Positions 6,519 to 45,895 of a DNA stretch of 64,000 nucleotides are shown here, piece after piece. Position numbers and translations under genes: made by a program. Positions within the stretch are counted from its first letter, which is position 1. Each line of letters starts with the position of its first letter. This stretch comes from Selaginella tamariscina (Eukaryota; Streptophyta; Lycopodiopsida; Selaginellales; Selaginellaceae): NCBI GenBank assembly GCA_003024785.1, contig PUQB01000137.1, positions 1 to 64,000 of the forward strand, written 5' to 3'. Under the pieces are notes generated by a model. The model saw nothing but the letters and a program-made list of their open reading frames with translations. It did no database searches and was not told where the DNA came from.

Positions 6519-6542
6519 TGGTATCGGAGCTCGGATAGCGCC

Positions 6543-10680: not shown

Positions 10681-10709
10681 GCTTGGATCCTGATTGTCTC
10701 ATACGTAAA

Positions 10710-11090
10710 TATAAAACTTTGAAGGATATATATGTGTAAGGTTCTATAGTATATATGTAGTATATACACCATGTAAACTTGTGAGGTTCCATGGTATATA
10801 TGCCTTAGACTTGTAAGGTTCCATGGTTATATGCAGCTATGTAGACTCTACCATGGAGATGCATGTGACACTAGGATTTACTTAGCACTAGATACACTAA
10901 TATGGGTGTGCTAATCAGTATAAATGCCTTGTATGAGTCAGACCTAATCGAATCATATTTGGTAATCACATCTCTCTAATTGGTGGAGATGTTGGGTGGG
11001 TAATACTTTAAAGATTTAGTTTTTTTTAATATTTTTTTAAATATTTTTTTAGTTTTTTTTTTGTCTTCCTCTCCCTTTGTTGTTATTGTT
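10710..11090. repeat. Unit A/B junction with about 32-bp tandem repeats
   Basis: The motif 'acttgtaaggttccatggta' followed by 'tatatgc' recurs here about twice, and three times at 20190-20300 in unit B. The stretch continues into a T-rich tract before the gypsy gag block. It may be the remnant of a gypsy LTR or leader, but I could not pair it with a second LTR. No gene is visible. Confidence 0.6.
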
Positions 11091-11149
11091 CATGATGGCA
11101 AATGAAGAAAGGTGGTTATAATTGTTTGATGAGCTACAGTTGAGCGTGG

Positions 11150-14360: not shown

Positions 14361-14689
14361 CCTCATACTTGATTACTGTAACACATACACAAGCATAATA
14401 AATAGCAACCTCTAAATTCAAGGGCTGGGATTGAAGATTTGTGGCTGTTTAAGAAACATGTATAAGACTGAGAAATAATTTAAATCATTGTACCTGTTGT
14501 AGGGGAACCTTACTTTATCTTCAAGAAAGCTGAAGGTTCACTGTACACCTTGGTAAGGCGTGAATTCTGAAAGAGTAGAGGAGAAGAAATAGAAACTGCA
14601 AAGGCCATCTATAACATAAAATGTAAAATCAAAAAGACAAGGATACTGTATACAATATGTATATGTGTGTGTGTCCTAAAAAACAAGAC

Positions 14690-15350
14690 AATGGATATTA
14701 TTGTTAGACATTCTATATCATGGTAATAACTGTGTTTGTACAAGTGTGAATTTTATGTGGCTTAACGAGTTTATGTTTGTCTGTACGTCATTACATAATT
14801 CTATCAAATGATGAGTAAAACATATTATTAATTACATGTGATTGTTTTTTTTTCACATGTTTTAATAAAATATAGTGTCAAAGAAATAATATACATTTAA
14901 GAATAAAATTAAAAAAAGTTTAATATGTATGGTCTGTTTAACGAGCATAAGACGAGAAAGTACTTAAATGTTACAAGAGGTACATATACGTAACATTTAT
15001 GCTATGTATAAATGTTAAGTTATGCACCACACATTGCTAAAGAAAACGTTACGTATATGTACCTCTTGTAGCTATTATATGTATACACAAAGTACATAAA
15101 CCATACAAACATATAGACATAAAATGTAAAATTTTATAATAAATTTTCAAATTAAGTCCACCACACATTGCTAAAGAAAACGTTACGTATAATGTAAAAT
15201 TTTATAATAAATAAGTATAAAGCACGAACATTACCGGGCCAGAGTTCCAGGCGGAGATCCCACAAGTATTAAATTTAGCAAATCATAAAGAACCGCTTGG
15301 TTGTCTTACTATATGGCCTCATCAAGTGAAAGTAAGTTCCATATCTCTCC
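14690..15350. repeat. Hairpin-bearing spacer segment present in units B-D
   Basis: It contains an inverted repeat 'tacaagaggtacatatacgt' (about 14973) against its reverse complement ending 'gtacctcttgta' (about 15071), with a loop of about 55 bases. It also contains two direct copies of 'caccacacattgctaaagaa' followed by 'aacgttacgtat'. The same segment is at about 24500-24770 and 34810-35060, but is missing from unit A. It could be a small nonautonomous element. No gene is visible. Confidence 0.6.
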
Positions 15351-15533
15351 TGTTCACACACACGTATATATATAGAGAGAGAGAGAAATTAACGATGAAC
15401 TTTATTGCAGTATAATGGAAAGATATTAATGTTATTATATTGGACAAATATTGACATTGTCACTTACTATGTGTCATTGACATAATAAAGAGTGTTTAAT
15501 TAAAATATCTGCCACAAGCATAAAATGCACTTC

Positions 15534-18091
15534 TCATATGGATACAGCAATGGGGCTCCTCACATAGTGGATACCGTCACTCCAGCCCAAGGCAGAGTAG
15601 ATCCATGTAGTACTGTTGTCTCCACCAGAAGCAGCCGTCAGTGTTACAGTGTAGGAGAGCTTCTGACCGATGCTAGTGAAATTCAACACTTTGGGGCTCA
15701 CATCTATGGACAAGCCTTGAGTCACTTACAGCTTCTAATGTGTACATATATACTGACTTCTCTCGTCCAACGTTTGTTAGCGTCCTTTCAACTATTTGGC
15801 TTCCATTTAGAGCATTGAATCCGATCGATGGATAGTTTAGGTCGAATCTTGTTAAAGATGCATTCTTTGGACATTCACTTGACTTATCTCCAGTAATGTT
15901 ACGTATTTGCTCCGAAGTATAACCAATCCTGCAGAGATAAGTCATGTAGTCTTTGGGCTGGATATCATATACTAGTCCTGGATCAATGGCCTTTGCTGGC
16001 TGGATATGACCTGAACCATAGCTGAACACTGTAACTGGTCCTCCATTGTAAGATATGGTTTTGTTGGTGTTGTCCAAAGTCGTTGCTGCCATTATTTGGT
16101 TTTTTAAAGCATGTATTATCAAATTTAATCTTTTTAGTTATTATATGATCAGGATTGAGATAGCACGAGTCAAGAACAGATTATCTAACACAATAATGCA
16201 TTCATCTACAGTTTATTTATTTTTGTTTATTTATAATAGATGTATATTAATAAATACTACGTACCAGTTGTCATGAGTGCTGATTTTAGTGCAGCAGGGC
16301 TCCACGTTGGGTGATAAGATTTTAAGACTGCCAATGCTCCACCAGCATGAGGTGTTGCCATCGATGTTCCAGAAAGCAATGCATATTCAGAATATATAGA
16401 TTTACTGCCTATATAGACGGGAATATTACTAGGCCAAGCTGCCAATATATCTACTCCAGGAGCTGTGACGTCCGGCTATGTAATATCAAATTGTAGAAAA
16501 CAAATAGCGAAAGAAATATAATATAAGCACTTACTTTTATAATGTTTGAATCCAAAGTGTTTGGTCCTCTAGTGAAAACCCTGCCATTACTGGAGCAGGC
16601 TTATAGTTATTTATTTGAGTGCCCTGCACGATGTGGTTAATAACTGAACCATTCATAAAACTACAATAACCTTGTCTAACCTTTTGTGTATCGATTAATC
16701 TGTCGATGGTGCTAGCAGCAATGGTGAAAACCAAGGTGCTGCATTTATAACTGACTGGTGATAATAAAGTTTCCAGCACCAGCAGCAACAGAATTCCTCG
16801 CTCACGGCATGGTAAGCACCAATAGCGATCCATCAATACTGTACAAAATTGGTGGTCCTCCAATTGAAATTGATATCACGTCAACTCCATCGTTGACTGC
16901 ATCGTCCGAATGCAGCTAGTATGTCGGATTCATCACAGATTCCCAACATGCTTTGTACACAGCAAGCCTTGCAAAGTCTGCACCTCTCTCGAGCTGTCCC
17001 ATTCGCAAGTCCTTCCATGCTTACATTTTTTTACTGCTCTTCCCGCTGCAGTAGAGGCAGTGTGGGTGCCATGACCATTGTTGTCCCTCGCGTTATGGTT
17101 AGGTTTGGGACCGAATCCCTTGTATATAACGGGCTCCAATAAGCTCTGTCGAGATTGTGTCAAGGGTTAACAGTGAGCGCACCCTTTGTAGTATTAAGCT
17201 TGATGTGTTTAACCTGTTACAGTTGACCACAAGAGTAGCATTCAATCCAGGTGGGTTCACACACGTTCCTTTCAACGAGATGGAACAGGTCCCATGCCAA
17301 AATCCCTCGAAGCTTTTGGATTCTGGCCAGATACCTGTTTCCAATTCTAACTATTGTTAATCCATGTGCTCACTTGTATGCAGTGATTTTCAGTACACAC
17401 GCACACACAAGGAATATCATATTTATAGCTATTTTGAATAACCTGTGTCTATCATCCCAACAACTACGTCGTATGAGCCTCCCATTTGGTTGCTTCAGAT
17501 AAGAAAAAGGAAGTATAGCCAATGAAGTCTCACGAACGAGTTGTAAGGACACTGTATGTTTTGCTGGGATAGATGTTGATAACATCAGGCATATCTGGAA
17601 ATTCAAACAAACATAAGAACGTAGGATTCTAAAATTATGCCAGCCTTAACTGGATAAGTAATCAGCTTGCTCTACCGTCAACCTTGCGGAGAACCCACTG
17701 AACGAGTATTTGTAGCTATAAACCATTGCTTCAGCGGCAGTCCAAACTGGTCAATATAAATATGAATATATTTTCAAAATTATCGAAAGTAGTAGCCTAG
17801 CTTAGGCGATATGTCCATATATATATATATAGTTTATTAGTTGCAACTGCTTACCTTCCCGTTGCTTTTGAGAGCATAGCATGGTGCTCTAAAGACAATG
17901 ACTCTGCATTTTTGTTTCTTGTACCTCCTAGATATACTATGTACGTCTGAACTCGTGGAAGCTGTATACATGTCAATTGTATGAAATATAATATATATAA
18001 TAGAAAGAATTACTTGAGTTGAAGATTTGGATGGTATTGTAGCAGAATTCATATACAGCAAAGTCGCAAAAAGCATTACTCGGAGAAGCAT
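15534..18091 (-). CDS. Subtilisin-like serine protease, array copy B, frame-disrupted
   Basis: The eight-exon layout matches copy A, starting at the ATG at 18091 (MLLRVMLFATLLY). The triad motifs are readable: GMIDTG near 17450, [10 protein letters not shown] near 17070 and SGTSMATPHAGG near 16370 (Ser codon 16372-16374). Copy-specific lesions include an extra G near 17488 and another near 17509 in the Asp exon, an extra C near 16906, a shortened stretch near 16935 ('atcacagattccc'), and an extra A near 15711 before the terminal domain. The intergenic flanks are almost identical to unit A, so duplication is recent. As with A, decay and consensus error cannot be told apart. Confidence 0.83.
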
Positions 18092-18099
18092 CGTACTTG

Positions 18100-19540
18100 G
18101 AGATGAATATGCAGGCAGCCAGCCATTTAAGCAGCCTCTTCAGTTTCTCCGGCTACATCTCCAATGCTAATTGGTTGTTTGTTTGTGACCACAATTGTTT
18201 AGAGCCAGTAAATAAATTAATTGTATCTTAGCTTAGTAAGGAAAGAACAAAAAAAAAACTTAAAATATGTAAAATGGCTAAGTTTTCTCTATTGGTGAAG
18301 GTTTTAAATTACATTAATATTTCTTGTGAATTCTTAATTGTTTTTCTTTTCTAATGTAAAAGGGGTGATTACATCGCGTTCTTAAAAGAAAGGGAATGGC
18401 AAGGACAATGACTTTCCCTTTAAATTTTAACCCTAATTCGGTGATGTGATAGTCTGTAATAATACTATTGAGAAAACTTTAGTAATATGAAAAATCAACA
18501 TTTTTAAACTCATAAAATTAAAAATATCAGAAGTTAGGTAAGAAAAACTAGATTAAACAATATAAAAGAGTTTTATATAAAGTCACGTTTAATTGAAAAC
18601 ACATCAACTAAAAAAACGTATATATCAGAATGACATATAATAGCTTATATCAGAAATTTAAGTAATAAAATTAAACATGTAAACATACATAAAAGCTACA
18701 TAAAAGAATTTAAAAACACCAACATATAAAGACTTTCCCCTTATTGTCACAATTGCTAATAATTCGGTGATTTTAATTATGTGTAATAATATTATTGAGA
18801 AAATTTTATGAATATGAAAAATTAACATTTTTAAACTCATATAATTAAAAACATCAGTTAGGTAAGATTATACCTATATTAGAGTTACACATCAACTAAA
18901 AAACGTATATCAGAATCACATAAAAACATAAAATAGCTTATATCAGAAATTTAAGTAATAAAATTAAACATGTAAACATACATAAAAGCTACATAAAAGA
19001 ATTTCAAAACAGGAATATATAAAGAACTATATAAAAGGCTATAATAAAATTCAATTTAAAAATGAATTAATAAAACATTAATTGTGTGAATCGTTGTATA
19101 TAAAAATCAGATTGGGATTTTTGATTTTGTCTGTGATTTTTTGTTAAGGTTTTTCATTTAAAAGAAAAATAAATCATATTTTTCAATTTCATAACAGAAC
19201 ATATTAAAAACTATGTAAGAAGACCAACTTATTTAACAAAATTTAGTTTAAAATTGACCAATAAATTATTAGAAAAAAAATAATAATAACGGGAATTTCA
19301 ATATGACTTTTGTATATAACGATTCACACATTAATTACTTATACAAAAATACTATTATTTTTAACTTCCTGCATTAAAAGTAAAATACAATATCATGCGG
19401 AAGGCTGGTTGAATTTCTGAATTGGTGGAAGCGTAACTTGCCAAAAGGACAGACACGTTCGACCGCGAATATCAAAAAGCTCTTAAATACAGAGGTTGCC
19501 CTCGGAAGCTTGGCGAGAGCCTGACTATAGAATGCTGAGG
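18100..19540. other. AT-rich 5' flank of subtilase copy B
   Basis: This is noncoding DNA nearly identical to 4400-5850. No gene, RNA or transposon terminus is visible. It ends in a less AT-rich stretch (about 19400-19540, 'ggaagcgtaacttgccaaaa') shared with A and D, whose origin I could not identify. Confidence 0.6.
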
Positions 19541-19549: not shown

Positions 19550-20130
19550 GATGTGTCTAAAGATGCTGAACAATCACTCTACACGTAAGAAAAAACTTAA
19601 TTAAACACTTGAATTGCTAACCATTATAGAATTATAAATTTAGATTAGAATAGCCATTACAAATGTTGTAACTAAAATGAAAATAATACATGAAATTGAA
19701 AATATTAAAAAAAAAATTAATTAATACTTATGTATAAATTATTAATATTTTAAACATACATTTTAAAAAATATTCTTTCTTTAAACATATATTATTCTAA
19801 AATTATTTCTTTATATTAAAAATATTAATTAAATAATTAAAATTATTAATTATTAAGAAAATGAGATTATATACATTCTCATTTTAGTTACAAAGTATAT
19901 TATTGTTCTTTCATTATTGCACATAACCTTTACTATATGATCTATTTGGGAGTCCTAGTGCCAAAATTACATTTGAAGTTTTTATATTTGGCAAAACTGA
20001 ATTTTTATAGTCAGCCTTGGTTAATAATCAAGGAATTGCATTTTTAAATGTATTCCAATTCTTAACAACCTCCATAGATTTTTGTTGTCCTCCCCCCTAA
20101 ATCTTTGGATAAAGCACGTGTGAGAATATA
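19550..20130 (-). mobile_element. hAT transposase scrap in array unit B
   Basis: It matches 5860-6425 and, in two blocks, the C-terminal region of the hAT relic at 39885-40160. The uninterrupted target TACGT for copia element 1 lies just beyond it at 20131-20135. Confidence 0.6.
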
Positions 20131-20189
20131 TACGTAAATATAAACTTTTAAAGATATATGTGTAAGGTTCTATAGTATATATGTAGTAT

Positions 20190-20300
20190 ATACGCCATGT
20201 AAACTTGTAAGGTTCCATGGTATATATGCCTGTAGACTTGTAAGGTTCCATGGTATATATGCTTGTAGACTTGTAAGGTTCCATGGTATATATGCAGCTG
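20190..20300. repeat. About 32-bp tandem repeat, three copies (unit B/C junction)
   Basis: Three copies contain 'acttgtaaggttccatggta' followed by 'tatatgc'. The matching place in unit A has fewer and more degraded copies (10780-10840), so the number changed after duplication. Confidence 0.75.
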
Positions 20301-20599
20301 TAGACTCTACCATGGAGATGCCATGTGACACTAGGATTTACTTAGCACTAGACACACTAATCTGGGTGTGCTAATTAAGTATAAATGCCTTGTATGAGTC
20401 AGACCTAATCGAATCATATTTGGTAATCACTCTCTCTAATTGGTGGAGATGTTGGGTGGGTAATACTTTGAAGATTTAGTTTTTTTTAATATTTTTTTAA
20501 ATATTTTTTTATGTTTTTTTTGTCTTCCTCTCCCTTTGTTGTTATTGTTCATGATGGCAAATGAAGAAAGGTGGTTATAATTGTTTGATGAGCTACAGT

Positions 20600-22250
20600 T
20601 GAGCGTGGTGAATCATATTGCTCTTTTATAAGAAATTCACTAAGGTATGTAGCAAAATGCTAGTATGCCGCAGAGTGCCACTCCACACCTTTTGAGTTTG
20701 AATCCACGTGTTTGTCCAAAGTTCTTCAAGGGAGAGCTGGAGCGGATGTGTACCATTGGTGGGAACACTTTCAAGGGATTGTTGATTATCATGGATGGTC
20801 TGGATCTCAACGGTTGCAAGCGTTCCCAATGTGTCTGCAAAGACTTGCCTTGTAATGGTACAATGGTGTCCTCGTTCTCAATCGACAAAATTGGAACATC
20901 TTGTTCTATCGATTCAAGCAAGCTTTTAATAAGCCCAAGGATTCTGCTGTAGCTTTTCGTGAGCTCCATGGCTTGAAGCAAGTGTCGGAGAGATTATTCA
21001 ACGATTTGGGATCAAGTTTCAGAACTTGGTCAATCGTGTGGACTGAACATGAAAGAATGTGTACGGTTGGGCTTGTTGTGGCCGACTCTTCGCCCTGATT
21101 TGGCTGGCTTGGTGGAGGGATTTGGTCCCTCAACTATAGAGGAGGCTTGAAGGATTGCACAATGATTTGAGAACTCGTTGGGTGCAACACAACGTGTGTA
21201 TCCTGTACCAGCACTTATTCTTGGAACTTCTTCAATCGATCCTATTCTAATGAAAGTGGGTGCTATCTAGATGGAGGACAAGTCCTCAGGCCGCAGGAGG
21301 GGCTAAGGCCAATTTGCTGGTTGGCGTGGTCATGGTTGTGGTCGTGTGGGTGAAACATTCAGTGCTATGAGTGCCAAGGTTGAGGACATGTTGCACAAGC
21401 ATGTGCAAATCACATCAAATAGCTGCCATTGAGACTACAAAAGAAGTTGAAATGCTTTCTCAACCGGAAAATGGGGAGTAGTGCACGGGGTGTCAGAGGA
21501 CCCATGCACTAGGCACATTGCACCACCTTTAAAGAATTTGACTTATGTGCATAGTCAACACTTCCCCGAAGCACCTTTGTTCTTCCATGCTTGTGCGGGC
21601 GTAGGGGTTGAGTTATTGGAACATCGACCATTTTATGTTTGTGTTCTCAGGCATGGTAGAAGAAACTCCTGTTTCAGTCTTGATGAACTTTGGATCGGTA
21701 TATCTTTTATCAATCGATCGGTAGTTGAGTCCCTGCACTTGCACACAGTACCTGTTGAGAGAACTTTAAAAGTAGTGTTTACTATAAGAAGTCATTTGCT
21801 CAATCACATCGAATTGCTCACGTGCCTATGGTGCTAGGATGATACCATCATATACTTTCGTTGCAGGTGATGTTGAACCAAGTCCATGAATCATCCTGGG
21901 TGTCAATTGGCTCCGTGCAGTCAAGGCGAGATGACGTGCACGTTGTCTATCTTAGGATGCTCCCCATTATGGGGCTACATGACATGCACCGCATGGCATG
22001 GCAACGACATTGCAAGGCATCGTGGTGTTTAAGGAAAAGTCTTCTCCGAAGCAACGAGCCAAGGATATTAAAGACTTGTTGGCGAGGTATCCAAACCTAT
22101 TCAAACCCATTGTAGGAGCTGTGAATCCCTTGGTAACTACTCGGCATCACATCCTGACTAGTACAACTCGCCCAATCAAGGAGAAGGATATCCTAAATCT
22201 TTGCGTAGGGAGATGTTGGAGTTGAAGGTGATATGTAAGTCCCGAAGTCT
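20600..22250 (+). mobile_element. Ty3/gypsy gag-protease remnant, unit B/C junction
   Basis: This is a near-identical copy of 11150-12760. The order is gag, a CCHC knuckle with the same internal TGA (about 21380), the retropepsin-like segment and the linker (about 22070-22200, IKDLLARYPNLFKPIVGAV). It stops within the start of RT at about 22250, where the inverted pol fragment begins. Frames are broken throughout. Confidence 0.82.
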
Positions 22251-23870
22251 ATGGGCGGCACTCCGGACATGTATGAGTACATTCATACGTGTCCTGCATG
22301 AGTATGTACTCATGTAGGTCTTGCCACAATCGGGCTAATACAAGTGCTGCCGAATTCGTTGGAATCTCATATGTCCAGACATTGGGTTTTATGAAAGAAT
22401 TGCAACTAAGAGTTAATGTTAACCGGTGGTGCCACCACAACACTTGAAATCGTCTCCAACAAACACAAGCATGTCATCCATCAATCTAAAAGACTGTGCA
22501 TATGTACGAAAATTAAGATCCTCACCTCTCAAGACTTCACGCAACCTTCTGATCTACAGCTTTGCCTTCTGGGCCTCCACAGTGTCTTCCTGCCTAAGAA
22601 GGATGCGATCGGGGAGGGTGTTTGGTGCCACATGTGTCGCTACCACCACAAGAACTTGAGATAACGTGTCCATGTTCACCATGCTAGATCCCAGTCGATG
22701 AACAACATGAAATTAATACCCTTGTATAATTAAAGCCCAACGTGCAAGTCATCCCCTCACATTTCTCCTCTTCATGATCGAGTTAATTAGCATGATCAGT
22801 TTTCAACAATGTGTCAAAGCCATGTAAATACGCATGGAACTTCTAAAGGCCCATACGACTGCTAAGAATTCCTTATCCGTGGTGAAATAGTTTTTCTTTA
22901 CATCACTAAGGCTTCGACTTGCATAAGCAATTGGGTATTGTTGACCATCGAGAGTCTCTTGTAGTAGATATGGTCTCAACTTAACATCTGAAGTATCAGT
23001 CTGAAGAATAAAGGATCTATTAAAGTCCAGATATCACAACAAAGGTGGAGATCCTAGCAGCACCTTAACATCCTCAAATGCCTTTTGACACTTCTTGAAC
23101 CATAGGAATCAACCTCTTTGTTTTAACAATCCTCGCAATGAGGCTGTCAAATCTAAAAACCACAGAACAAACTTCATTAAGTATGTTGCCTTCCCTAAGA
23201 AACGTTGCAACTTCGCCACTAACTGAGGAACAAGAAATTCTCATACAGCTAGGGTCTTCTCGGGATCCGGCTTCATACCCTCTACCGTGATGATGAATCC
23301 TAAGTACTTCATGGAGGTACATCCAAACTTGCACTTTTGCTCTTTCAACTTCAATCCATATTGCACCAATCGTTGCAAGACCCATTCTAACTAATGAAGA
23401 TGTTTTTCCCATGTAATTGAGAGTGAATCCGAAAGTCGTCAATATAGACACGTGCAAATTCTTCAAAGCCCTCCAATAATCCATCATCCGCTGAAAGGTT
23501 GTTGGGTCCCGACCAATCCAAATGGCATAACCGTAAACTTGTATAAGCCAGATGGTGTTCGAAATGCTGACTTTGCTACATCTTCAAGAGCCATAGGGAT
23601 CTGCCAATAGCCATAAGCCATGTCAAGGATAATGAAGTATTGATTGTTCCTCAATACATCGACCAAATCATCCACCCTCGGTAATGGATACAAATTTGAA
23701 ATAAAAACATTATTCAATGGCCGAAAGTCGATAGCGAAATGTGTAGTCCCATCCGACTTAGGAATTAGGTATGGTTATGTCGCACATGGACTTTTGGAAT
23801 TACATATCACCTTCAACTCCAGCATCTCCCTCAGGTCGATGTGTCCGGAGTGTTAAGTCGATAGTAATCC
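22250..23870 (-). mobile_element. Inverted Ty3/gypsy pol fragment of array unit C
   Basis: This is the best-preserved copy. RT at 23484-23860 on the minus strand reads IPKSDGTTHFAIDFRPLNN, then YPLPRVDDLVDVL, LDMAYGYWQIPM and FTVMPFGL. RNase H debris lies at about 22790-22970, and an integrase zinc-finger-like stretch at about 22260-22440. The RT active-site block and the rest of integrase are not intact. Confidence 0.82.
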
Positions 23871-24069
23871 TCATACTTGATTACTGTAACACATACACAA
23901 GCATAATAAATAGCAACCTCTAAATTCAAGGGCTGGGATTGAAGATTTGTGGCTGTTTAAGAAACATGTATAAGACTGAGAAATAATTTAAATCATTGTA
24001 CCTTTTGATAGCTTGATTTTTCTAGGGACCGGTAGGGGAACCTTACTTTATCTTCAAGAAAGCTGAAGG

Positions 24070-25066
24070 TTCACTGTACACCTTGGTAAGGCGTGAATTC
24101 TGAAAGAGTAGAGGAGAAGAAATAGAAACTGCAAAGGCCATCTATAACATAAAATGTAAAATCAGAAAAGACAAGGGATACTGTATACAATATGTATATA
24201 TGTGTGTGTGTCCTAAAAAACAAGACAATGGATATTATTGTTAGACATTCTATATCATGGTAATAACTGTGTTTGTACAAGTGTGAATTTTATGTGGCTT
24301 TACGAGTTTATGTTTTGTCTGTACGTCATTACATAATTCTATCAAATGATGAGTAAAACATATTATTAATTACATGTGATTGTTTTTTTCACATGTTTTA
24401 ATAAAATATAGTGTCAAAGAAATAATATACATTTAAGAATAAAATTAAAAAAAAGTTTAATATGTATGGTCTGTTTAACGAGCATAAGACGAGAAAGTAC
24501 TTAAATGTTACAAGAGGTACATATACGTAACATTTATGCTATGTATAAATGTTAAGTTATGCACCACACATTGCTAAAGAAAAACGTTACGTATATGTAC
24601 CTCTTGTAGCTATTATATGTATACACAAAGTACATAAACCATACAAACATATAGACATAAAATGTAAAATTTTATAATAAATTTTCAAATTAAGTCCACC
24701 ACACATTGCTAAAGAAAACGTTACGTATAATGTAAAATTTTATAATAAATAAGTATAAAGCATGAACATTACCGGGCCAGAGTTCCAGGCGGAGATCCCA
24801 CAAGTATTAAATTTAGCAAATCATAAAGAACCGCTTGGTTATCTTACTATATGGCCTCATCAAGTGAAAGTAAGTTCCATATCTCTCCTGTTCACACACA
24901 CGTATATATAGAGAGAGAGAAGAGAAATTAACGATGAACTTTATTGCAGTATAATGGAAAGGAGTATTAATGTTATTATATTGGACAAATATTGACATTG
25001 TCACTTACTATGTGTCATTGACATAATAAAGAGTGTTTAATTAAAATATCTGCCACAAGCATAAAA
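24070..25066. other. Unit C spacer downstream of the subtilase
   Basis: It matches 14520-15530, including the hairpin segment (about 24500-24770). No gene is visible. Confidence 0.6.
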
Positions 25067-25074
25067 TGCACTGC

Positions 25075-27630
<2,556 letters not shown>

Positions 27631-27649
27631 CGTACTTGGAGATGAATAT

Positions 27650-28680
27650 GCAGGCAGCCGGCCATTTAAGCAGCCTCTTCAGTTTCTCCGGCTACATCTC
27701 CAATGCTAGTTGGTTGTTTGTGTGACCATAATTGTTTAGAGCCAGTAAATAAATTAATTGTATCTTAGCTTCAACAAAAAAAAAAAAATTTAAAATATGC
27801 ATTCGAATGTAAAATGGGACCTTTCTAAAATGTCTCTTCGGCATTGGTGAAGGGTTTTAGATTACATTTAAGGAATATTTCTTGTGAGTTCTTAATTGTT
27901 TATTTACTTATTGTATTTCTTTTCTAATGTAAAAGGGGCGATACTATCACTCGAGTTCTTAAAAGAAAGGTCTCGAGGACACCTTGGATTGTTTATTGAT
28001 GCAGTAAGGACAATGACTTTCCTTAATTATTGTCACAATTGCTAATTCACGGTGATTTTAAGGATGTGTAATAATATTATTGAGAAAATTTTATTAATAT
28101 GAAAAATTAATATTTAAAATTGAATTAGAAACATATTAATTAAAAACATCAGACCATATATTAGAGTTTTATATAAAATCACATTTGAAAAACAAGTATA
28201 TCAGAATGATATAAAATAGCTTATATCAGAAATTTAAGTAATAAAATTAAACATGTAAAGCTACATAAAAGAATTTCAAAACAGGAACATATAAAGAACT
28301 ATATAAAAGGCTATAATAAAATTCAATTTAAAAATTAATTAATAAAACATTAAAATTGTGTGAATCGTCGTATATAAACAAATTGGGATTTTTGATTTTG
28401 TCTGAGGTTTTTCTTTTAAAAGAAAAATAAATCATATTTTCAATTTCATAACAGAACATATAAAAAAACTATGTAAGAAGACCAACAACAAATTCAAAAA
28501 TTTAGTTTAAAATTGACCAATAAATTAGAAAAATAAAAAATAAACCTGAAATTTTAATATGACTTTTGTATATAACGATTCAAACATTAATTGGTTGCTT
28601 TTTTAGAAAAAATACTATTATTTTTAACTTCCTGCGTTAAAGAGCAAAATAAACAAAATACAATATCATGCGGAAGGCTT
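27650..28680. other. AT-rich 5' flank of subtilase copy C
   Basis: It is a diverged version of the 4400-5700 flank. Similarity to the other units ends at about 28686, inside the 'gcggaaggct' block, which marks a breakpoint of the array. No gene is visible. Confidence 0.55.
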
Positions 28681-28699
28681 GGTTGAATTCTTATGTTCA

Positions 28700-29133: not shown

Positions 29134-30760
29134 ATGGCACTAGAAGTGCTCTCAGCCTTGGACAAGGCTAAAAACACAATGGTACCATTTCAGGGTTTCT
29201 TCACGGACGCCTACGATCTCTTCTGCATATCCACGGTCACGAAGCTCCTGGGGAGAATATACTACCCGGATCCCACCGGAAGAAACCCGGCTCCCTCCCG
29301 CCAAACGTGTCGGCTGCAGTCAACGTGTCGTACTCTGTGGTACACTCGCTGGTCAACTCTTCTTTGGGTCGCTCGGAGATAAACTCGGCCGGAAACGAGT
29401 GTACGGACTCACTCTCGTACTCATGGTCGTTTGCTCGATTGCTTCCGGGCTCTCGTTCGGACACACGACAAAGTCCGTCATCACCACGCTGTGCTTCTTC
29501 AGGTGTTGCGTGTGCGTGGGTTGCAGTAACGTGGTGTTAAACAGACTACCCGTTGTCCGCAACTATCATGTCCGAGTAGTGAACACAAAGACGCGAGGGT
29601 CCTTCATCGCTGCAGTCTTCGCGATGCAAGGTTTCGGTATTCTAGCCGGCTATGGTCTCTCTTGTCGTCTCGGCTGCATTCAAGAACGCGTACCCGGCAC
29701 CGCCTTTCAAGTGAACGCGGCTGCTTCTCTTCCTGCACAGGTACGTGTGTGTGTGTGTGCGTGTGTGTGTGGTGCTTATGTTTTGCATACAGGCTGACTA
29801 CGTGTGGAGAATCATCTTCATGCTTGGTTCGATTCCGGCAGCTCTTACTTTCTACTGGCGGATGAAGATGCCTGAGACGGCTCGGTACACCGCTCTCGTG
29901 GAGGGAAATCTTAAGCAGGCAGCACAGGACATGAGCAAGTACGTGTGTGTTTGTGCGTGCGTGCGTGTGGCATTTCTATAATATACTACCTGCAGAGTAA
30001 TGGAGGTTCAAGTAGAAGCTGAGACAGCAAAACTAGAGGGAGTGAAGACCAAATACGGGCTATTTACAAGAGCTTTTCTGAGGCGGCACGGTTTACACCT
30101 ACTGGGCACGACGTCTACGTTGACGTGGCTTTCTACAGTCAGAACCTGTTCCAGAAGGACGTGTCACAGCCGTCGGATGGATCCATGCTCCAAAGACGAT
30201 GAGCGCCCTTGACGGTTTTCAAGATCCCGGAACCAGGACCCTTATCGCGCTCTGCTCCACGGTACCGGGTTTCATAGATCGCATCGGACGGTTCACAATC
30301 CAGCTCATGGGTTTCTTCTTCATGACGGTGTTCATGTTTGCACTGGCTATACCGTACACCACACTTCGAGGCCACAAGTGTGATAACGGATTCTGCGGTG
30401 GACATCACGTAGGATTCATCATACTCTACTCGCTAACATTCTTCTGGGCAAACTTTGGGCCGAACAACACCACGTTTATCGTTTCCTGCAGAGCTTTCCC
30501 TGCGAGACTGAGGTCGACCTGCCAGGGTAATATCGGCTGCCGCCGGTAAGGCAGGAGCGATAGTCGGCGCGTTTGGTTTCTTGTACGCGGCACAGAGCCC
30601 CAACAAGGTGGATGACGACCCCGTTTACCCGCCGGGTGTAGGTATTCGGACTTCACTTTTGTTGCTTGGGGATGTAATGCTTTGGGGATGCTCTGCACGT
30701 TCCTTGTGCCTGAGACTAATGGTAGGTCGCTGGAGGACTTGTCTGGGGAGAGGAAGACTT
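29134..30760 (+). pseudogene. PHT1-type phosphate transporter, decayed
   Basis: PHT1 proteins are plasma-membrane H+/phosphate symporters of the major facilitator superfamily. The ATG at 29134 gives [14 protein letters not shown], then [11 protein letters not shown] and [12 protein letters not shown]. Further on come [42 protein letters not shown] (other frame, about 29549), [64 protein letters not shown] and VPETNG. Two small introns fit (29741-29792 and 29939-29995). Frames shift at least near 29260, 29320, 29500, 29570, 30100 and 30530. Residues are missing before [10 protein letters not shown] and around VPG/FIDRIG. It sits between array units C and D, outside the repeated unit. Confidence 0.8.
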
Positions 30761-30999
30761 GCCTTTGAAATTGTTGAATCAGACATTTTGTACGTTTTCA
30801 AAGCAATGAGACAGGAAAGTACTGTATATTTTGTCAACTCTTCTTTGTTGTTGCCTCAGGATTCATCTTCAGATTGGTTCTCCGGAAAACGAGGCTTCAG
30901 TTTGCAATCACGAGTAACCCGTGCTATCCATCCCATCTCATATGCTGATAACTCATAGTAATCCTCGTACTTGATTATTTGTAACATCCTATTCAGGAG

Positions 31000-33945
31000 T
31001 GTGATCTCCTCAAAGGAGCCAAGAGTGTCCTGCAGATCCCTAGGAGTGGGAATTTGTACGAGATTCCTGAGAAACATGCTGACTGCATGGCGGCCGGCAC
31101 ATCAACTGCAATTTGGCATGAGCGTTTGGGCCACGCTCACCTTCCTCTTCTACAAAAGGTACAAAAGCTGCATCTACTAGACGGCTTCTCCTCGGAACCT
31201 CTCCAGAATCTTGACCTATGCCACGGATGTGTTCTTGGCAAACAGACTCGCTCTCAATATCCGGCTTCCACATCCTGCTCCTCTGATCTACTTCAGCTCG
31301 TTCACTCTGACATTTGTGGCCCCATGAGAGTCGAAAGTCACTCTGGCAAAAAGTACTTCATGACGTTTGTGGATGACTTTAGCCGACACTGCCAGGTGTA
31401 CTTCTTGCGCTCCAAGGACCAAGCCCTAATGCTTTTAGGGATTACCTGTGCACGGCTCAGAATCAAACTGGAAGAAGGCTTAAAGTTCTACGCAGTGACT
31501 CTGGAGGAGAGTATACCTCGCTAGCTTTCAAGAGCTTCTGCTCGCAGGAGGGGATAATTCACCAACGCACATGCCCGGGTACATCACAACAAAACGGCAT
31601 AGCAGAACGCAAGCACCGGAGCATCATGAACACAGCCCGTTGCTTCTTGCACTCGTCAGGTCTTCCTCTGCACCTCTGGTCCACAGCTGTGAAAACGGCA
31701 GTTCAGGTCCAGAATCTCCTCCCTCACTCTGCAAAACCTGACCATTCCAGAAGAAACATGGACAGGCAGAAGGCAAAAGGTGACTAGATTGCGACGCTTT
31801 GGGTTGGGTGTCTCGCCTTCATACGACAAAGTCCTGACGTAGGAGGAAAATTAGCGCCTCGCAGTAAGCCAACGTTCTTGGTTGGCTATGAAGACCATAT
31901 CAAGGGATACTGTCTTTATGATCCATCTAATGGCAGAATACAGGTTAGTAATGATGTAGTCTTCGATGAACGGATAGTCTATCGTGATTGTCGCACCAGC
32001 TCGCCAATACCACCAACTGATGCTTCACGTGCATGGGAGCCGAATGCTTGGCTATGGGAGGATGACCCTACTGAGGAAGACAGGTCGGTTGCCGAGGAGG
32101 AAAGGAATGTCATTGAAAATGAAGGTTTACCTGACACTTCACCCACTGCACCTGCCAATTCAACAACCGAGACTGAGTTTGCCGTAGACGACCAAGTTCA
32201 GGTTAATATCCCTAACTTGCAGGCCGAGCAGCTAGAACTGAATGCACAACCTACAACACGACGAGCTCCAGAGGCTGATCGCTTGGCGCGGGGACTTCCC
32301 TTTGATCTTCAACCTCTTGGACGTAACCATGCAGGTAAACCAACTCGGATTCCCAAACCCAAGGCATTATTGGTCACTCAACCAAAGGTGTCAACTCCGA
32401 ACAACTTTCACGAGGCACAGAGCTCACCTGAAGCTGCAGAGTGGATGAAGGCCATGCAGGACGAACTTGACTCTCATCGAGCCAACCAAACCTTCACACT
32501 TGTTCCGGAAGAACCACACCAACAGGTCATCGGAGGACGCTGGGTCTTCAAGAAGGTACTGAACGCGGACAGCACAGTCAAGCGATTCAAGGCTCGCTTC
32601 GTTGCCAAAGGATTCTCCCAGGTGCCGGGACTGCACTTTGACGAGACCTTCTCACCCACTGTCAAATCCGCAAGCATTCGAGTGCTCATGGCTTTCGCTG
32701 CACAGTTCGGGCTTGCTGCACATCATCTCGACGTGAAGACAGCCTTCTTGAATGCACCTCTCAAGGAGAAGCTCTTCATGACACAACCCGAAGGCTTTGA
32801 GCAGACAGGAGCTAACGGGGAGAAGCTTATATGTCAGCTCCAACGAGCAGTATACGGTCTCAAGCAGGCGTCGAGAGAGTGGTATAGGTGTATCGACAGC
32901 TTTCTACATGAGCATGGCTTTACCAAACTCGACTCTGATGGAAACCTCTATCAAAAGGAGACCTCCGAGGGCTTCCTGGTCATTGCTGTATACGTCGACG
33001 ACTGTTTGCTCGTTAGCAGCAGCCAGGCCCTTCTCCAGCGCTTCAAGGAGCTTATGAGTCAACGGTATCAGCTCTCAGACCTTGGACCAGTGGAGAAGAT
33101 CGTTGGCATTCAAGTAGAACGAAATGAAACTGCTGGAACAGTGAAGCTCAGCCAACCTCAATACGTCAATGAACTGCTAGAGCATTTCAACATGCTCAAC
33201 TGTCGGCCTGCTCCAACTCCGATGGTCACAGGCCGGAAGCTGGTACGTGAAGGCACGCATGTGTTTGAGAATCCAAGTTTGTATCGGTCCTTGGTAGGCG
33301 GGCTTCTCCACTTAGCGAACACCACCCGACCTGACATCTCGTTTGCTGTGGGAGTTCTCAGCCGCTTCAACTCAGGGCCTCTCCAAGATCATTGGCACGC
33401 TGCCAAAAGAGTCCTCAGGTATTTACAAGGAACTCGTCACTTCGGTTTGCTGTACTCCAAGAACACCAGAAGTTCCATGGTGCTTCAAGCTTTTACTGAT
33501 GCCGACTGGGCTGGCGATCCAGACTCACGCGTTTCCACCACTGGCGTGTGTTGCTTGCTAAGCGGAGCACCTGTCTCGTGGCTGAGCCAGAAACAGACTT
33601 CTGTGGCACTTTCAAGTGCTGAAGCTGAGTATGTAGCCGCATCAACAGCTGCCAAAGAAATCATCTGGCTGAGACGTATGCTCACAGAACTTCGTCATCA
33701 GCAACACGATCCCACCATTCTGCGCTGTGACAACAAAAGCACAATTGCGATGACGAGAAATCCAGTTCTTCACGCGCGGAGCAAACATATAGAGATCCGC
33801 CATCACTTCATACGGGAGAAGGTGGCGGATGGGGAGATAGTGCTCGAATACATTCCCTCCCTAGACAGTTGGCTGATATCTTCACCAAACCACTGTCGGA
33901 GAATGTTTTCTTCAAGTTGAGATCCTCGTTAGGAATTTCAGCTTG
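31000..33945 (+). pseudogene. Copia pol of element 2 (integrase, RT, RNase H), frameshifted
   Basis: Translation starts inside the segment before integrase (SGNLYEIPEKH). Integrase shows HERLGHAHLP, CHGCVLGKQ, LVHSDICGPM, FVDDFSRHC, then SDSGGEYT and NGIAERKH in a shifted frame (31432-31780). A long open stretch from 31878 to about 33858 covers RT (HHLDVKTAFLNAP, AVYVDDCLLV) and RNase H (FTDADWAGDPDSR, ALSSAEAEYVA, HARSKHIEIRHHF). A last shift near 33858 puts the tail (RQLADIFTKPLSENVFF) in another frame. The long intact RT/RNase H suggests a young insertion. Confidence 0.9.
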
Positions 33946-33954
33946 AGGAGGGAG

Positions 33955-34217
33955 TGTTAGGAATCAAGTATCGAGCACTACGAGATACAATAGGATGCGA
34001 TACGATCCCTGGGTGTCAGACCGTTGGGATTGCAGGAGATTCACCCTGCAGGGTTATATAAGCAGTTGAACAAGAGATGTAACTGTACAGTTACATCTCT
34101 TGTTCAACTGCTTATATAACCCTGCAGGGTGAATCTCCTGCAATCCCAACGTCTGACACCCAGGGATCGTATCGCATCCTATTGTATCTCGTAGTGCTCG
34201 ATACTTGATTCCTAACA
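33955..34217. repeat. 263-bp near-perfect palindrome (head-to-head U3 arms, TG...CA ends)
   Basis: The left arm is 33955-34086 (132 nt) and the right arm 34087-34217 (131 nt). The right arm is the reverse complement of the left with a single one-base gap ('gaccgtt' versus 'gacgtt'). The centre is AACTGT/ACAGTT with no loop. Each arm holds TATATAA (left copy 34055-34061). The centre lies about 25 bases past it, where transcription would be expected to begin. Confidence 0.95.
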
Positions 34218-35060
34218 TGTTACACATACACAAGCTAATCAATAGCAACCTCTAAATTCAAAGGCTGGGATTGAAGATTTGTGGCTGAGATGAAGTTTAG
34301 GAGACTGAGAAATAATTAAATCATTGTACCTTTTGATAGCTTGATTTCTTCTAGGGACCGGTAGGGGAACCTTACGAATCTTCAAGAAAGCTGAAGGTTC
34401 GATGTACACCTTGGTAAGGCGTGAATTCTGAAAAAATAGAGCAGAAGAAAATAGAAACTGCAAAGGCCATCTATACATAAAATGTAAATCAGAACATGGC
34501 TTCTTAAGTACTACAAAATGTCCAACAAAAAAGACAAGGGATACTGTATACAATATGTATATATGTGTGTGTGTCCTAAAAAAACAAGACAATGGATATT
34601 ATTGTTAGACACTATTGGTAATAACTGTGTTTGTACATGTGTGAATTTTATGTGGCTTAACGAGTTATGTTTTGTCTGTACGTCATTACATAATTCTATC
34701 AAATGGTGAGTAAAATATATTATTAAATTACATGTGATTGTTTTTTTTTTTTTTCCACATATTTTAATAAAATATAGTGTCAAAGAAACAATATACATTT
34801 AAGAATAAAATGTTACAAGAGGTACATATATGTAACTATGTATAAATGTTAAGTTATCCACCACACATTGCTAAAGAAAACGTTACGTATATGTACCTCT
34901 TGTAGCTATTATATGTATACACAAAGTACATAAACCATACAAACATATAGACTAAAATTATATAATAAATTTTCAAATTAAGTCCACCACACATTGCTAA
35001 AGAAAACGTTACGTATAATGTAAATTTTATAAATTTTCAAATTAAGTATAAAGCATGAAC
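34218..35060. other. Unit D spacer downstream of the subtilase
   Basis: It resumes the unit sequence ('acacatacacaagctaatca') interrupted by copia element 2, including the hairpin segment at about 34810-35060. Only short gypsy-derived sequence remains here. No gene is visible. Confidence 0.6.
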
Positions 35061-35367
35061 ATTACCGGGCCAGAGTTCCAGGCGGAGATCCCACAAGTAT
35101 TACATTTAGCAAATCATAAAGAACCGCTTGGTTATCTTACTATATGGCCTCATCAAGTGAAAGTAAGTTCTATCTCTCCTGTTCACACACACGTATATAT
35201 ATAGAGAGAGAGAAGAGAAATTAACGATGAACTTTATTGCAGCATAATGGAAAGGAGTATTAATGTTATTATATTGGACAAATATTGACATTGTCACTTA
35301 CTATGTGTCATTGACATAATAAAGAGTGTTTAATTAAAATATCTGCCACAAGCATAAAATGCACTTC

Positions 35368-37881
<2,514 letters not shown>

Positions 37882-37889
37882 CGTACTTG

Positions 37890-39000
37890 GAGATGAATAT
37901 GCAGGCAGCCGGCCATTTAAGCAGCCTCTTCAGTTTCTCCGGCTACATCTCCAATGCTAGTTGGTTGTTTGTTGTGACCACAATTGTTTAGAGCCAGTAA
38001 ATAAATTAATTGTATCTTAGCTTAGTAAGGAAAGAACAAAAAAAAACTTAAAATATGTAAAATGGCTAAGTTTTCTCTATTGGTGAAGGTTTTAAATTAC
38101 ATTAATATTTCTTGTGAATTCTTAATTGTTTTTCTTTTCTAATGTAAAAGGGGTGATACTATCACTCGCGTTCTAAAGAGGGAATGGCAAGGACAATGAC
38201 TTTCCCTTTAAATTTTAACCCTAATTCGGTGATTTTAAGGATGTGATAGTTTGTAATAATATTATTGAGAAAACTGAAAAATCAACATTTTTAAACTCAT
38301 ATAATTAAAAATATCAGAAGTTAGGTAAGAAAAACTAGATTAAACAATATAAAGAGTTTTATATAAAGTCACATTTAATTGAAAAACACATCAACTAAAA
38401 AAACGTATATATCAGAATGACATATAATAGCTTATATCGGAAATTTAAGTAATAAAATTAAACATGTAAACATACATAAAAGCTACATAAAAGAATTTAA
38501 AAACAGGAACATATAAAGAACTATATAAAAGGCTATAATAAAATTCAATTTAGAAATTAATTAATAAAACATTAAAAGTTTAATTGTGTGAATCGTCGTA
38601 TATAAAAATCAGATTGGGTTTTTTTGAGTTTTGTTAAGGTAAAGAAAAAAAATTCATATTTTTCAATTTTATTACAGAACATATAAAAAACTATGTAAGA
38701 AGACCACAACAAAATTAACTTTTGTAACAAAATTTAGGTTTAAAATTGACCAATAAATTATAAGAAAAAAAAAAGTAATAAATCTGGAATTCCAATATGA
38801 CTTTTGTATATAACGATTCACACATTAATTCTTTTTTAGAAAAATACTATTATTTTTAATTCCTGCATTAAAGAGCAAAATAAACAAAATACAATATCAT
38901 GCGGAAGGCTGGTTGAATTTCTGAATTGGTGGAAGCGTAACTTGCCAAGAGGACAGACACACGTTCGACCCCGTATATCGAAAAGCTCTTAAATACTGAG
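37890..39000. other. AT-rich 5' flank of subtilase copy D
   Basis: It corresponds to 4400-5830, with internal deletions. At its right end the shared 'gcggaaggctggttgaattt' block continues further than in A and B, into unique sequence from about 39010. Confidence 0.55.
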
Positions 39001-41839: not shown

Positions 41840-44800
41840 GTCCGAGCATGCTCTTTGTGAGCAAGTTGCTGCCCTCTAGTAGCAGATCGAACAACTACAC
41901 CTGGAGAATGATTAGCTCCGACAATATGCGAATTCTCTAGAGCCTAAGATTAGCATGCCTAAAAAGTTTGATGGTACCCGATCGAAGTTCCGAGGTTTTC
42001 TCAATCAAGTTTGTCTGCGGATCGTGATGCAGCCAATGCACTATAGCACAGAACCTATTAAGGTCGGATTGATCGGGTCGCTGCTTTTCGGTTCTGCTCT
42101 TTCGTGGTTCTTAGCCTTGCTGAAAAATAATGATTTGATCCTTGGGAATTTTGAGGTGTTATGGAATGGTTCACGGCGATGTTCAGTGACGTGGATAGTC
42201 AGAGTGCTTCCATCACCAAACTCCGCCAGCTTCACCAAGGGGGTACGTCGGTAGCAGAGTATGCGTCGAAGTTCCAACTCCTTGCTTGTGATGTCACTCG
42301 GGGAGATCGTGTTTTCAAGGAAGTTTTCCGGTTGGGATTGCATGACGAGATCAAAGACATGTTGCTGAATTTTGCTGTTCTGGAAACCCTCACCTATGAC
42401 AATCGGTTAATCGAGTAGAAACAAGAACGTCGACATCTTTCTTTCTTCCGGTCCGTCTTCTTTTATTTCTCCAGTCCCTGTTTTTTCATCTGCTAATCCA
42501 TCATCTTCCTTAGTAGAACCATCCCCAACCCTCTGATCTTCTTCATCCTCTTCCCATTCCTTCTGCTCCTTGGAGATTCATTTCTATGGATTTCCTTACC
42601 ACAAGCTGGAGAATTGTCATCAATGTCCAAAGCAAGCTCATGAAGTGGCCCTTGCTGTGCTACTGGGAAACGAGAAGATCCAGAATAAGAGCCGTCCGGC
42701 TGGATTGATGTGGAACAACTCATGTTCCTTAAGGCTCTTCACTTAAAACATCTTCCCTTCCTCATCTTGGATCATTCCATCCATGAAGGTGTGCAAGCCG
42801 TTCCATGTTTCGGTGCAGCTAAAGATGCTAGAGGTAGAGTTCTTTGGTAAAGCTTTGGTGGATAGCAGAGCGAACACAAATTTCATCGACAAGAATTTTG
42901 CTGTCAAGCACGGGATTCGTTTACATCCTTTGAAGACTCCTGGTTCTGTACGGGTCGTTAATGAACGAGATATCAAATCTGGAACGATAATAAATGACAC
43001 AGAGTTCGTTGAGGTCGTTGCTTGCAGTGCTGTGTGCAACATCTCCTTCAATGTTGTTTCTATTTCGAACTCTAAAATTATCCTTGGTTTGCCGTGGATC
43101 GAGTTGGTGGATCCTGGTTGGAGAGAACGTTTCATAAACAGTTTCCCAGCTGTTTCAACTCCGGCCACACTCTTTGATTCCGATCCTGTTCCAGTTCCTC
43201 CTCCGCTTCAAGTCTTGCATATCACCTTGAAGCAGTTCAAGAAAGATAGCCGACATGACTTAGCGTCCATGTTCGCGATCACAGTCTATCCCTACTCTAC
43301 TAAAGATGTTTCTGTTCCTGTTCCTATTGCCTTACCAAAGCAGTATGCTGATTTTACAGATGTCTTTGATAAAAAGAACTTTTGCCTTGCCACCGCACCG
43401 TGGTACAACTGTCTTATCGATCTCATTAAGGGTAAGCAACCATCCTCCGGTCCCATCTATGGTCTCTCACTGACAGAGTTGGACATTGAGGAAATACATT
43501 GAGGAGAATCTTGTCATTGGATTTATTCGCGATCACCGGCTGGTTCCCCAGTAATCTTTGTTTCCAAGAAGGATGGAAGTCTCTGGCTCGTGGTGGACTA
43601 CCAGGATCTGAATAAGGTCACCATTCCAAATAAGTATTCTTTCCCGTTTGTCTTCGACATGCTCGAGCATCTTTTGGTGCCCGGTATTTCACAAAGATCG
43701 ATTTAAGAGGAGTGTACAATCTCATCCGAATTCGAGAAGAAGACGAGTGGAAAACAGCATTTTGTACACGTTACGGACATTTCGAGTACATAGTAATACC
43801 ATTTGGCCTGACAAATGCACCTGCTGTTTTCCAACACATGGTTAACGATATTTTTCAGGACTTCTTGGATTTGTTTGTCATCATGTACCTAGACGACATC
43901 CTGATATTTTTCCAAGACTCGAGAAGAACACGAACGGCATGTACGGTTAGTCTTGGAGAGCTTCGGAAAGCACCACTGTTTGCCAAGTTGGAGAAGTGCT
44001 CTTTCAGTCAATCTGTTGAGTTCCTGGGGTACATTTCAGCTGAAGGTGTTCACATGGATCCTGCAAAAGTCCGGACTGTATTAGAGTGGGAGAGATCATC
44101 AAATGTTCTATGATGTTTGATATTTCCTCGGGTTTGCAACTTTTATCAATGTTTTGGTTTGGGATTTCTCCAAGATTGCATTGCCATTGACGAAGTTGAC
44201 TGGCAAGGATGTTCCATTTGTCTGGTCCTCTGAGGCTGAAGGCGTTCGAGTTCCTAAAGAAGGCGTTCACCTCGGCACCTGTTCTTATCCATCCTGACCC
44301 TGCGAAGCCATATTTCGTGGAAGCTGATGCCTCTGACTTCGCCATTGGTGGAGTGTTGTCCCAGGAAGGTCCAGATCATCTTCTCCATCCCATTGCTTTC
44401 CATTCCCGCAAGTTCACTGCACCTGAGATCAACTACGATGTCTACAACAAGGAGCTGCTGGCGATCGTCGATGCCTTTGAGGAGTGGCGCAGATTCCTTG
44501 AAGGTTCCCCGCATGTGGTTAAGGTGTATTGTGATCACAAGAACCTCCAGTACTGGGCAACAGCACGAGTTCTCAATCGACGTCAGGCGCGATGGGCACA
44601 GTCTTTGTCCCGGTTCCGATACGTGATTATTCATCGTCCCGGTCGTCTAAATGGCAAAGCAGATGCCTTATCTCGTCGCAGTTACCTAGCTCCAGTACCA
44701 GGTGAAATCCGATTTGATCAACAAGAACAAGTCATCCTGAGCTCCGACCAGTTGTTGGTGAACGCGCTTTCCCGTTCTTCTGCTCCAGTTGACACTTCGT

Positions 44801-45895
44801 TTTTGGATCTAATCCGAGAAAATCTCCCTCAAGACGAGTTTGCTCGTGATGTCCTTGCACATGTTCGACGAGTTCAGCCATTGTCTTCAGGGTCACAACT
44901 ACGAGATTATGCTGCTTTCCATCTTCATAATGGGTTGCTGTACCACCACATCCAAATCTATGTTCCGGACGGAGAACTGAGGTTGCGAGCTGTCCAACAC
45001 TGCCATGACAACACAGCAGGACATTTTGGCATTCGAAAGACGATCGAGCTGGTACAAGGTGTTCTGGTGGCCTCGGCTTCGCATGTTATGTTGAGAAGAT
45101 TTGTGCGATCTTGTGACACGTGCCAGCGTACAAAGCTTCCTCGTCATCGACCGGTTGGACTACTACAGCCTCTTCCTATTGCTCAGCGGCCATGGTCTCC
45201 ATCACCATGGATTTCCTCATGATTTACCGCCTTCTAGAGGGTTTGATGCTGTCCTAGTCATTGTTGATCGGTTCTCTAAGATGGCGCACTTTGTTCCTTG
45301 CAACAAACATGTTCGGGTCCTGATGCTGCAGATTGGTGTACCGGGAGGTGTTCCGTCTTCATGGTCTTCCTGATGAACTTGTCACTAATCGAGGTCCCCA
45401 GTTCACTTCAACATTCTGGTGGAGATTCCTAGATCAGCTAAATATCACTGGGAAGTTGTCTATTGCACATCATCCTGAAATAGATGGCCAAACGGAAGTA
45501 GACAGCATCCTGAAACAGATGGCCAAACGTTTCAGGATGATGGCCAAACGGAAGTAGACAGCATCCTGAAACAGATGGCCAAACGGAGCGCACAATTCAG
45601 ACTTTGGAACAATATCTCCGATGTTTCATTTCTCATATGCAAGATGATTGGGTTGATTTCCTTCCTACTGCCGAGTTCGCGTACAACAACATGGCATACT
45701 CATCCATAAGTACACAATTCAGACTTTGGAACAATATCTCCGATGTTTCATTTCTCATCTGCAAGATGATTAGGTCGATCTCCTTCAACAACACGGCACA
45801 CTCATCCATAAGTGTGTCGCCATTTTTCGCGTTCTCTAGTTACCCAAGTGTGGCTCCTCCGGCATCATTGGCCAACCACACATCCCTGTGATAAG
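41840..45895 (+). pseudogene. Gypsy gag-pol, frameshifted
   Basis: Gag (about 41840-42420) starts MSEHALCEQV-like and shows MPKKFDGTRSKFRGFLNQV, FTAMFSDVD and AEYASKFQLLA. The protease (about 42783-43130) has ALVDSRANTNFID, where DSRA replaces the usual DSGA, then IILGLPWIE. RT (about 43550-44110) has TKIDLRGVYNLIRI, FGLTNAPAVFQHMVNDIF and MYLDDILIF. RNase H (44209-44690) has VEADASDFAIGGVLSQ, YDVYNKELLAIVDAFEEWR and LNRRQARWAQSLSRF. Integrase (about 44980-45890) has [21 protein letters not shown] and HHPEIDGQTE, with internal tandem duplications. The SR in place of SG in the protease and several shifts make it inactive as written. Confidence 0.88.
45471..45820 (+). repeat. Two nested tandem duplications in the integrase region
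   Basis: Copies of a unit of about 62 bp ('gatggccaaacggaagtaga') lie at about 45484-45530 and 45541-45587. Copies of about 125 bp starting 'cacaattcagactttggaac' lie at about 45591-45713 and 45714-45815. The second pair encodes the same integrase stretch ([12 protein letters not shown]) twice. Confidence 0.85.

Follow-up and report, generated by a model that had tools for sequence, protein, structure and literature searches.

The locus described here raises the question of how a Copia element came to end in a palindrome where its 3' long terminal repeat (LTR) would be expected, and of how such a molecule entered the chromosome. It lies in a stretch of 64,000 nucleotides, here called the window (C413:1-64000), which belongs to a genome of 300.7 Mb in 1391 contigs. 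We consider it probable, at odds of roughly two in three, that the insertion stems from an aberrant cDNA which a young Copia family produced and which was joined by its ends into a double-strand break. This reading draws on a comparison of the sequence with the family's normal copies and with empty target sites.

A palindrome at the end of a truncated Copia element

The palindrome spans 263 bp (33955-34217), and the spacer between its arms is 0. The arms are reverse complements from end to end, and their sole difference is a one-base indel, with no substitution: the left arm has CC at 34021-34022 where the right arm has a single C. The motif around this position was recovered at 29 of 39 further LTR loci that were read, all 29 of them with CC; the single C of the right arm may be an error in the reads or else a deletion private to this copy. 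The preliminary description had given these arms at exactly the right positions and had correctly reported the TG and CA termini, the purine tract in front of the left end and a TATATAA in each arm. As a single strand, the palindrome has a folding energy of -165.1 kcal/mol against a shuffle mean of -27.1 (z = -37.1), and none of 200 shuffles folds as low. Elsewhere in the window, no other perfect inverted repeat of at least 16 nt was found with spacers of 0-6, 8, 10, 15, 20 or 30, low-complexity arms having been dropped. Imperfect, longer inverted pairs do occur there, for example 61802-62017 with 62292-62522 at 87%.

The palindrome occupies the place of the 3' LTR in a Copia element, as had been proposed. 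The pol remnant in front of it (Table 1) contains an SH3-like domain (PF25597, E = 5.3e-8) and a Copia-type reverse transcriptase (RVT_2, PF07727, E = 5.5e-72) with the integrase upstream, which is the arrangement of the Ty1/Copia group; of the two upstream matches, PF13976 lies above its curated cut-off and PF00665 below. The reverse transcriptase frame has 5543 protein homologues, the best of which by E-value shows 36% identity, and the top identity among the best 120 of these is 46%. The pol frames are broken and are not safely interpretable. With up to three mismatches allowed, the window contains no other LTR start; the element is without a 5' LTR and without its 5' portion. The match to six of seven pol pieces from the genome begins at 30998, inside pol; the match to the seventh, L045, begins further in.

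We take the TATATAA of the left arm to be a TATA box, and the transcription start of the left U3 is predicted at about 34085-34092. At the centre of the palindrome stands a perfectly self-complementary 12-mer, AACTGTACAGTT. Counting from the first T of the TATA box, it begins 26 and ends 37 bases further on. It thus sits where the transcription start is expected, at the predicted U3/R border.

Table 1. Coordinates of the insertion, its parts and its flanks in the window
Feature	Position	Strand	Evidence and remarks
Left target flank, native	30749-30997	.	94% to L050, 92% to L057, about 250 bp; contiguous with the right flank where the site is empty
Whole insertion: 5'-truncated Copia element with palindromic terminus	30998-34217	+	3220 bp
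Pol remnant: gag_pre-integrase and start of integrase core	31054-31524	+	PF13976 E = 3.3e-13; PF00665 E = 1.6e-5
Pol remnant: SH3-like, Copia reverse transcriptase (RVT_2), C-terminal part	31878-33920	+	Pfam
Polypurine tract GAGGAGGGAG, directly before U3	33945-33954	+	Sequence
Left arm: U3 of the family LTR	33955-34086 (132 nt)	+	100% identity at eight other places, followed there by normal R-U5
TATA box (TATATAA) of left U3	34055-34061	+	Sequence
Self-complementary 12-mer AACTGTACAGTT, palindrome centre	34081-34092	.	Native to the LTR
Right arm: inverted U3, without R-U5	34087-34217 (131 nt)	-	Ends at the LTR border CCTAACA
TATA box (TATATAA) of inverted U3	34112-34118	-	Sequence
Right target flank, native	34218-34420	.	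90% to L050 (203 bp); 95% to L057 (first 65 bp)

Normal members of the family

A search of the same genome with the left arm, as the preliminary description had advised, gave at least 42 matches, 22 of which form 11 direct pairs spaced 4.3-4.4 kb apart. The surroundings of all 42 listed matches were read by script and make up 40 loci (L001-L040), of which L007 is that of the window. The family LTR runs from TGTTAGG to TTTTCTATCT; it measures 186 bp in C1293 and mostly 176-186 bp, within a range of 156-205 bp, at the 19 sites outside the window that were measured by script. R-U5 is present and inversion absent in the normal LTRs measured. The arm corresponds to the first 131-132 bases of such an LTR, up to the predicted transcription start, with R-U5 missing. 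In normal copies the arm continues via AACTGTACAGTT into the remaining LTR (TTGCAAAA... in several of them), whereas the window copy reverses immediately past this 12-mer. The 12-mer is exact in 15 of 26 parsed LTRs (from 34 family LTR loci), including all eight whose U3 equals the arm. Since normal LTRs extend past the arm, the suggestion of two U3 regions joined head to head, with the fusion at the predicted U3/R border or in its immediate vicinity, is well founded. The palindromic joint itself has one place in the 300.7 Mb at up to three mismatches, in a search that scores best candidates only, and exact arm patterns had no match in the collections genome_contigs and viral_contigs.

These comparisons refute the idea that the palindrome is the family's normal LTR, which we hold to be virtually inconceivable. 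It does start with TGTTAGG behind a polypurine tract, as a normal LTR should, but its right end is the inverted U3 start, ...CCTAACA, in place of ...TATCT, and the lengths and structure at the 19 other sites, like the restriction of the joint to the window locus, speak against it.

In other respects the family appears regular. The polypurine tract is exact before 14 of 16 other 3' LTRs and variant before two (L024, L031). Directly 3' of the 5' LTR copies stands TGGTATCAGAGC, or a near variant of it, which is presumably the initiator-Met primer-binding site. An exact 5-bp target duplication is found at 14 of the 17 normal sites that are testable at both ends, two of them solo LTRs; it is off by a one-base shift in C673 and C522 and by one mismatch in C1370. 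C702 and C1358 had one end only, and C610 and C47 have common flanks and may represent a single insertion event. Judged from the positions of the target duplications at the sites measured by script, the family LTRs end in TG...CT rather than TG...CA; no paper on non-canonical LTR ends was found in the open-licence PMC literature. One further LTR, the 3' LTR of L006 (G000:C522, at about 192505), is 277 bp long, with its TATA-R-U5 part partly duplicated in direct orientation. ATAGT follows its outer end and matches the 5' flank save for a one-base shift. It is another aberrant LTR of the same Copia family.

The window element is closely related to these copies. Against two pieces of C522 (L006 and L047), which jointly cover 30998-34092 (3.1 kb), it shows zero substitutions and differs by gaps only, and because of this lack of substitutions the insertion is taken to be recent. 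Eight further pieces, each compared over about 1.5-1.6 kb, carry 0-11 substitutions apiece; gap positions relative to the window number 1-34 in all ten pieces compared. L045, which stands outside this ten-piece comparison, has 15 mismatches.

An undisturbed target site

The right flank, used as a query, is found at nine places in the genome, the window's own included, and the left flank was compared with the loci retrieved in this way. Two of these, L050 and L057, are paralogous empty sites in which both flanks run on uninterrupted, and they are the only two of the nine target copies with an intact, uninterrupted site. L055 is a third copy that has both flanks, rearranged at the insertion point, and five copies (L051-L054, L056) are without 19 bp at the site and keep little of the left flank. 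When the flanks of the insertion are joined at 30997/30998|34218, the result is identical to L050 and L057 over 37 nt across the joint. The target is neither duplicated nor lost, and a single A is shared (an overlap of 0-1 bp), so that either the A at 30998 or the A at 34217 may be derived from the target. In L050 and L057, the target (30980-30997 plus 34218-34224) forms a native hairpin, TGTAACATCCT-ATTC-AGGATGTTACA, with 11-bp arms.

Because the flanks rejoin with neither duplication nor loss, standard integration is unsupported. The 5-bp target-site duplication is absent, and in place of two direct U3-R-U5 LTRs there is an inverted U3 where R-U5 should stand. The integrase-type joining that the ends of the palindrome had suggested is not supported by the empty sites, although an integrase-joined right end may have been followed by a left-side deletion that chanced to rebuild the target. 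The lack of a target duplication, the little microhomology and the truncation are what is expected of a cDNA, here the presumed donor, captured by end joining.

Several other readings of the flanks were discarded. TGTAACA/TGTTACA might be taken for a target duplication on the basis of three tandem copies in the window; those copies lack the 19 bp, and the apparent duplicates are the two arms of the small native hairpin of L050 and L057. The same empty sites refute the view of 30986-30997 as filler partly copied from U3. Derivation of the target from the LTRs of related families (L036-L040) was dropped, at uncontrolled alignment scores of 8-13. The end of the inverted U3 (34191-34217) resembles the target region at 14356-14384 and 23864-23892 (GTAGTGCTCGATACTTGATTCC / GTAATCCTCATACTTGATTAC); 0, 2 and 2 of 500 shuffles reach the observed score in the three copies, and 2 of 500 do so in the left flank. 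The comparison is post hoc, and this likeness was set aside as evidence.

A tandem array occupies 1-6430, 10701-18732, 20130-28689 and 34191-38919, and its unit holds a subtilisin-like protease, the plant-like C-terminal domain of which was tested in the fourth array copy only; related places occur on contigs C604 (four) and C1237 (one). To the left of the insertion lies a decayed transporter-like gene fragment (29134-30750), which by eye we take to be a plant phosphate transporter; Sugar_tr matches at 30199-30546 (E = 3.6e-7), and 29134-29379 has no Pfam match. An open frame on the minus strand at 30855-30995, which may be the final exon of a host gene adjoining the insertion, matches no Pfam family above cut-off. 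A second and distant Copia element, running from gag to reverse transcriptase with 32-40% identity in matched protein stretches, is located at 6441-10680, and a repeat search of 6000-12000 revealed no LTR pair for it. Gypsy-type pol pieces with RNase H and an integrase zinc-binding domain lie at 42747-45222, together with a protease match below cut-off.

Origin, possible effects and known systems

Three features have to be explained: the centre of the palindrome at a self-complementary 12-mer, a mirrored arm whose end coincides with the U3 border, and a target left intact. All three are present in the sequence itself; the steps that follow are those we infer to have produced them. The plus-strand DNA of a retroelement starts at the polypurine-tract cut, which makes the TG of U3 its 5' terminus. 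If such a U3 strand had its 3' end inside AACTGTACAGTT, this self-complementary stretch could let it pair with the corresponding site of a second plus-sense template, or with itself in a fold-back. The strand would then be extended as minus-strand DNA via U3, the polypurine tract and pol, and the copying of this minus strand would yield, in order, pol, polypurine tract, U3 and inverted U3, with the TG/CA border as the exact end. A halt of minus-strand synthesis in pol, or trimming of the molecule there, would leave no 5' LTR. Finally, the linear product would be end-joined, with at most one base of microhomology and not by concerted integration, into a double-strand break in the small hairpin-forming target. 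On this account, the fusion point falls at the U3/R border because the 12-mer there is self-complementary, the mirrored copy ends exactly at the U3 border because plus-strand U3 begins at the polypurine-tract cut, and the target is undisturbed because a 5'-truncated molecule was end-joined into a break. In the minimum-energy fold predicted for the 138-nt U3 strand, the 12-mer does not form a hairpin. Intramolecular snap-back is therefore not the predicted fold and annealing between molecules has to be assumed, which makes a hairpin within one strand appear the less attractive variant. Aberrant reverse transcription, one of the sources named in the preliminary description, would accordingly be the best-supported origin, and the palindromic insertion is probably a one-off accident. 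The other source it named, inversion at a broken LTR, is disfavoured by a mirrored copy that ends exactly at the LTR border.

That same border bears on a different course of events, in which repair of the break itself built the unit: the broken end would have copied pol, polypurine tract and U3 from a linear cDNA or an element, changed strand at the 12-mer, worked its way back along U3 as far as the template end, and been joined to the opposite side of the break. Such repair would suit the missing target duplication, the microhomology of at most one base and the hairpin-forming target, and it would place the strand switch at the self-complementary 12-mer. A stop exactly at the TG border, however, is not expected from a chromosomal LTR, and a linear cDNA end would seem to be needed anyway; we regard this route as unlikely. 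Rather improbable, too, is an origin from two complete family members in inverted orientation. Inverted LTRs have a 12-bp direct repeat in common because AACTGTACAGTT is self-complementary, and a deletion between the shared 12-mers could have left U3, 12-mer and inverted U3, a second deletion removing the 5' part. The centre and the exact right border would thus be accounted for without an error of reverse transcription, but at the cost of a nested or adjacent inverted insertion and two deletions, one of which would have had to restore the empty site exactly, all without substitutions accumulating. Moreover, no other close pair on opposite strands occurs among the matches listed (at least 42), where C593 is the only other contig with matches on both strands, and these lie 700 kb apart.

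An assembly artefact, whether a fold-back chimera or collapsed inverted repeats, must also be considered. Perfect palindromes are difficult templates, and the differences of all ten pieces from the window, consisting of gaps (1-34) and few substitutions (0-11), look like long-read indel errors. A fold-back read should nevertheless have extended the mirror image into the polypurine tract and pol, whereas here the mirroring ends at the LTR border, beyond which comes native target sequence that is in register with both empty sites. We consider an artefact extremely unlikely.

As to possible effects, the two U3 promoters of the preliminary description point to the centre, and divergent transcripts would start near it and read away into the opposite arm, with the leftward one running antisense to pol. 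An RNA that covered both arms would form a promoter hairpin. The boldest extension would make the palindrome an active 'LTR killer', with divergent promoters, antisense pol RNA and a 131-bp promoter hairpin, transcribed by read-through from neighbouring host sequence, that feeds small RNAs silencing the family in trans, and would make it, by way of the self-complementary U3/R border, a recurrent by-product of reverse transcription in the family; this we rate as a long shot.

The wider interest of the locus is that of a readable fossil of a likely error of reverse transcription, readable because normal copies and empty sites allow comparison, in which the fusion point, the priming sequence, the cDNA end and the insertion site can all be identified. 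It suggests that, given a self-complementary U3/R border, a cDNA end with a palindrome could arise from plus-strand DNA, and that break repair can fix palindromic cDNA molecules in a chromosome. The locus also offers a candidate for setting off small-RNA silencing, namely a promoter hairpin from a family that is young and was active recently.

Retrotransposon cDNA is captured at double-strand breaks by end joining, in the case of yeast Ty1 and in tobacco, and the window insertion resembles these events in its truncated, presumed cDNA, its lack of a target duplication and its little or no microhomology; we know of no U3-U3 palindromic terminus from reports of such capture. Palindromes also arise from self-primed (snap-back) cDNA, when strand ends re-prime on complementary sequence. 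The window palindrome differs in having no loop asymmetry, since the priming site is itself self-complementary.

Template-switch complexes of cereal Copia elements carry a third direct LTR and 5-bp target duplications (Sabot and Schulman 2007, PMC1950507). Like the window insertion, they show an abnormal LTR arrangement in a plant Copia element that is ascribed to template switching during reverse transcription and judged by its flanks. Unlike them, the window has one inverted partial LTR, a 5' truncation and no target duplication, and thus lacks the target duplication and similar outer LTRs that mark such complexes. The words 'inverted' and 'palindrom' are absent from the main texts of PMC1950507 and PMC12786077. 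In maize, Mu killer is an inverted duplication of MuDR sequence, with a proposed hairpin RNA of about 4 kb, that is reported to silence MuDR (PMC3440606). The window palindrome is likewise an inverted duplication of a transposon's own sequence; MuDR is a DNA transposon for which silencing is reported, whereas the present case is known from its sequence. Within the open-licence PMC literature, no report of a U3-U3 palindromic LTR or terminus was found.
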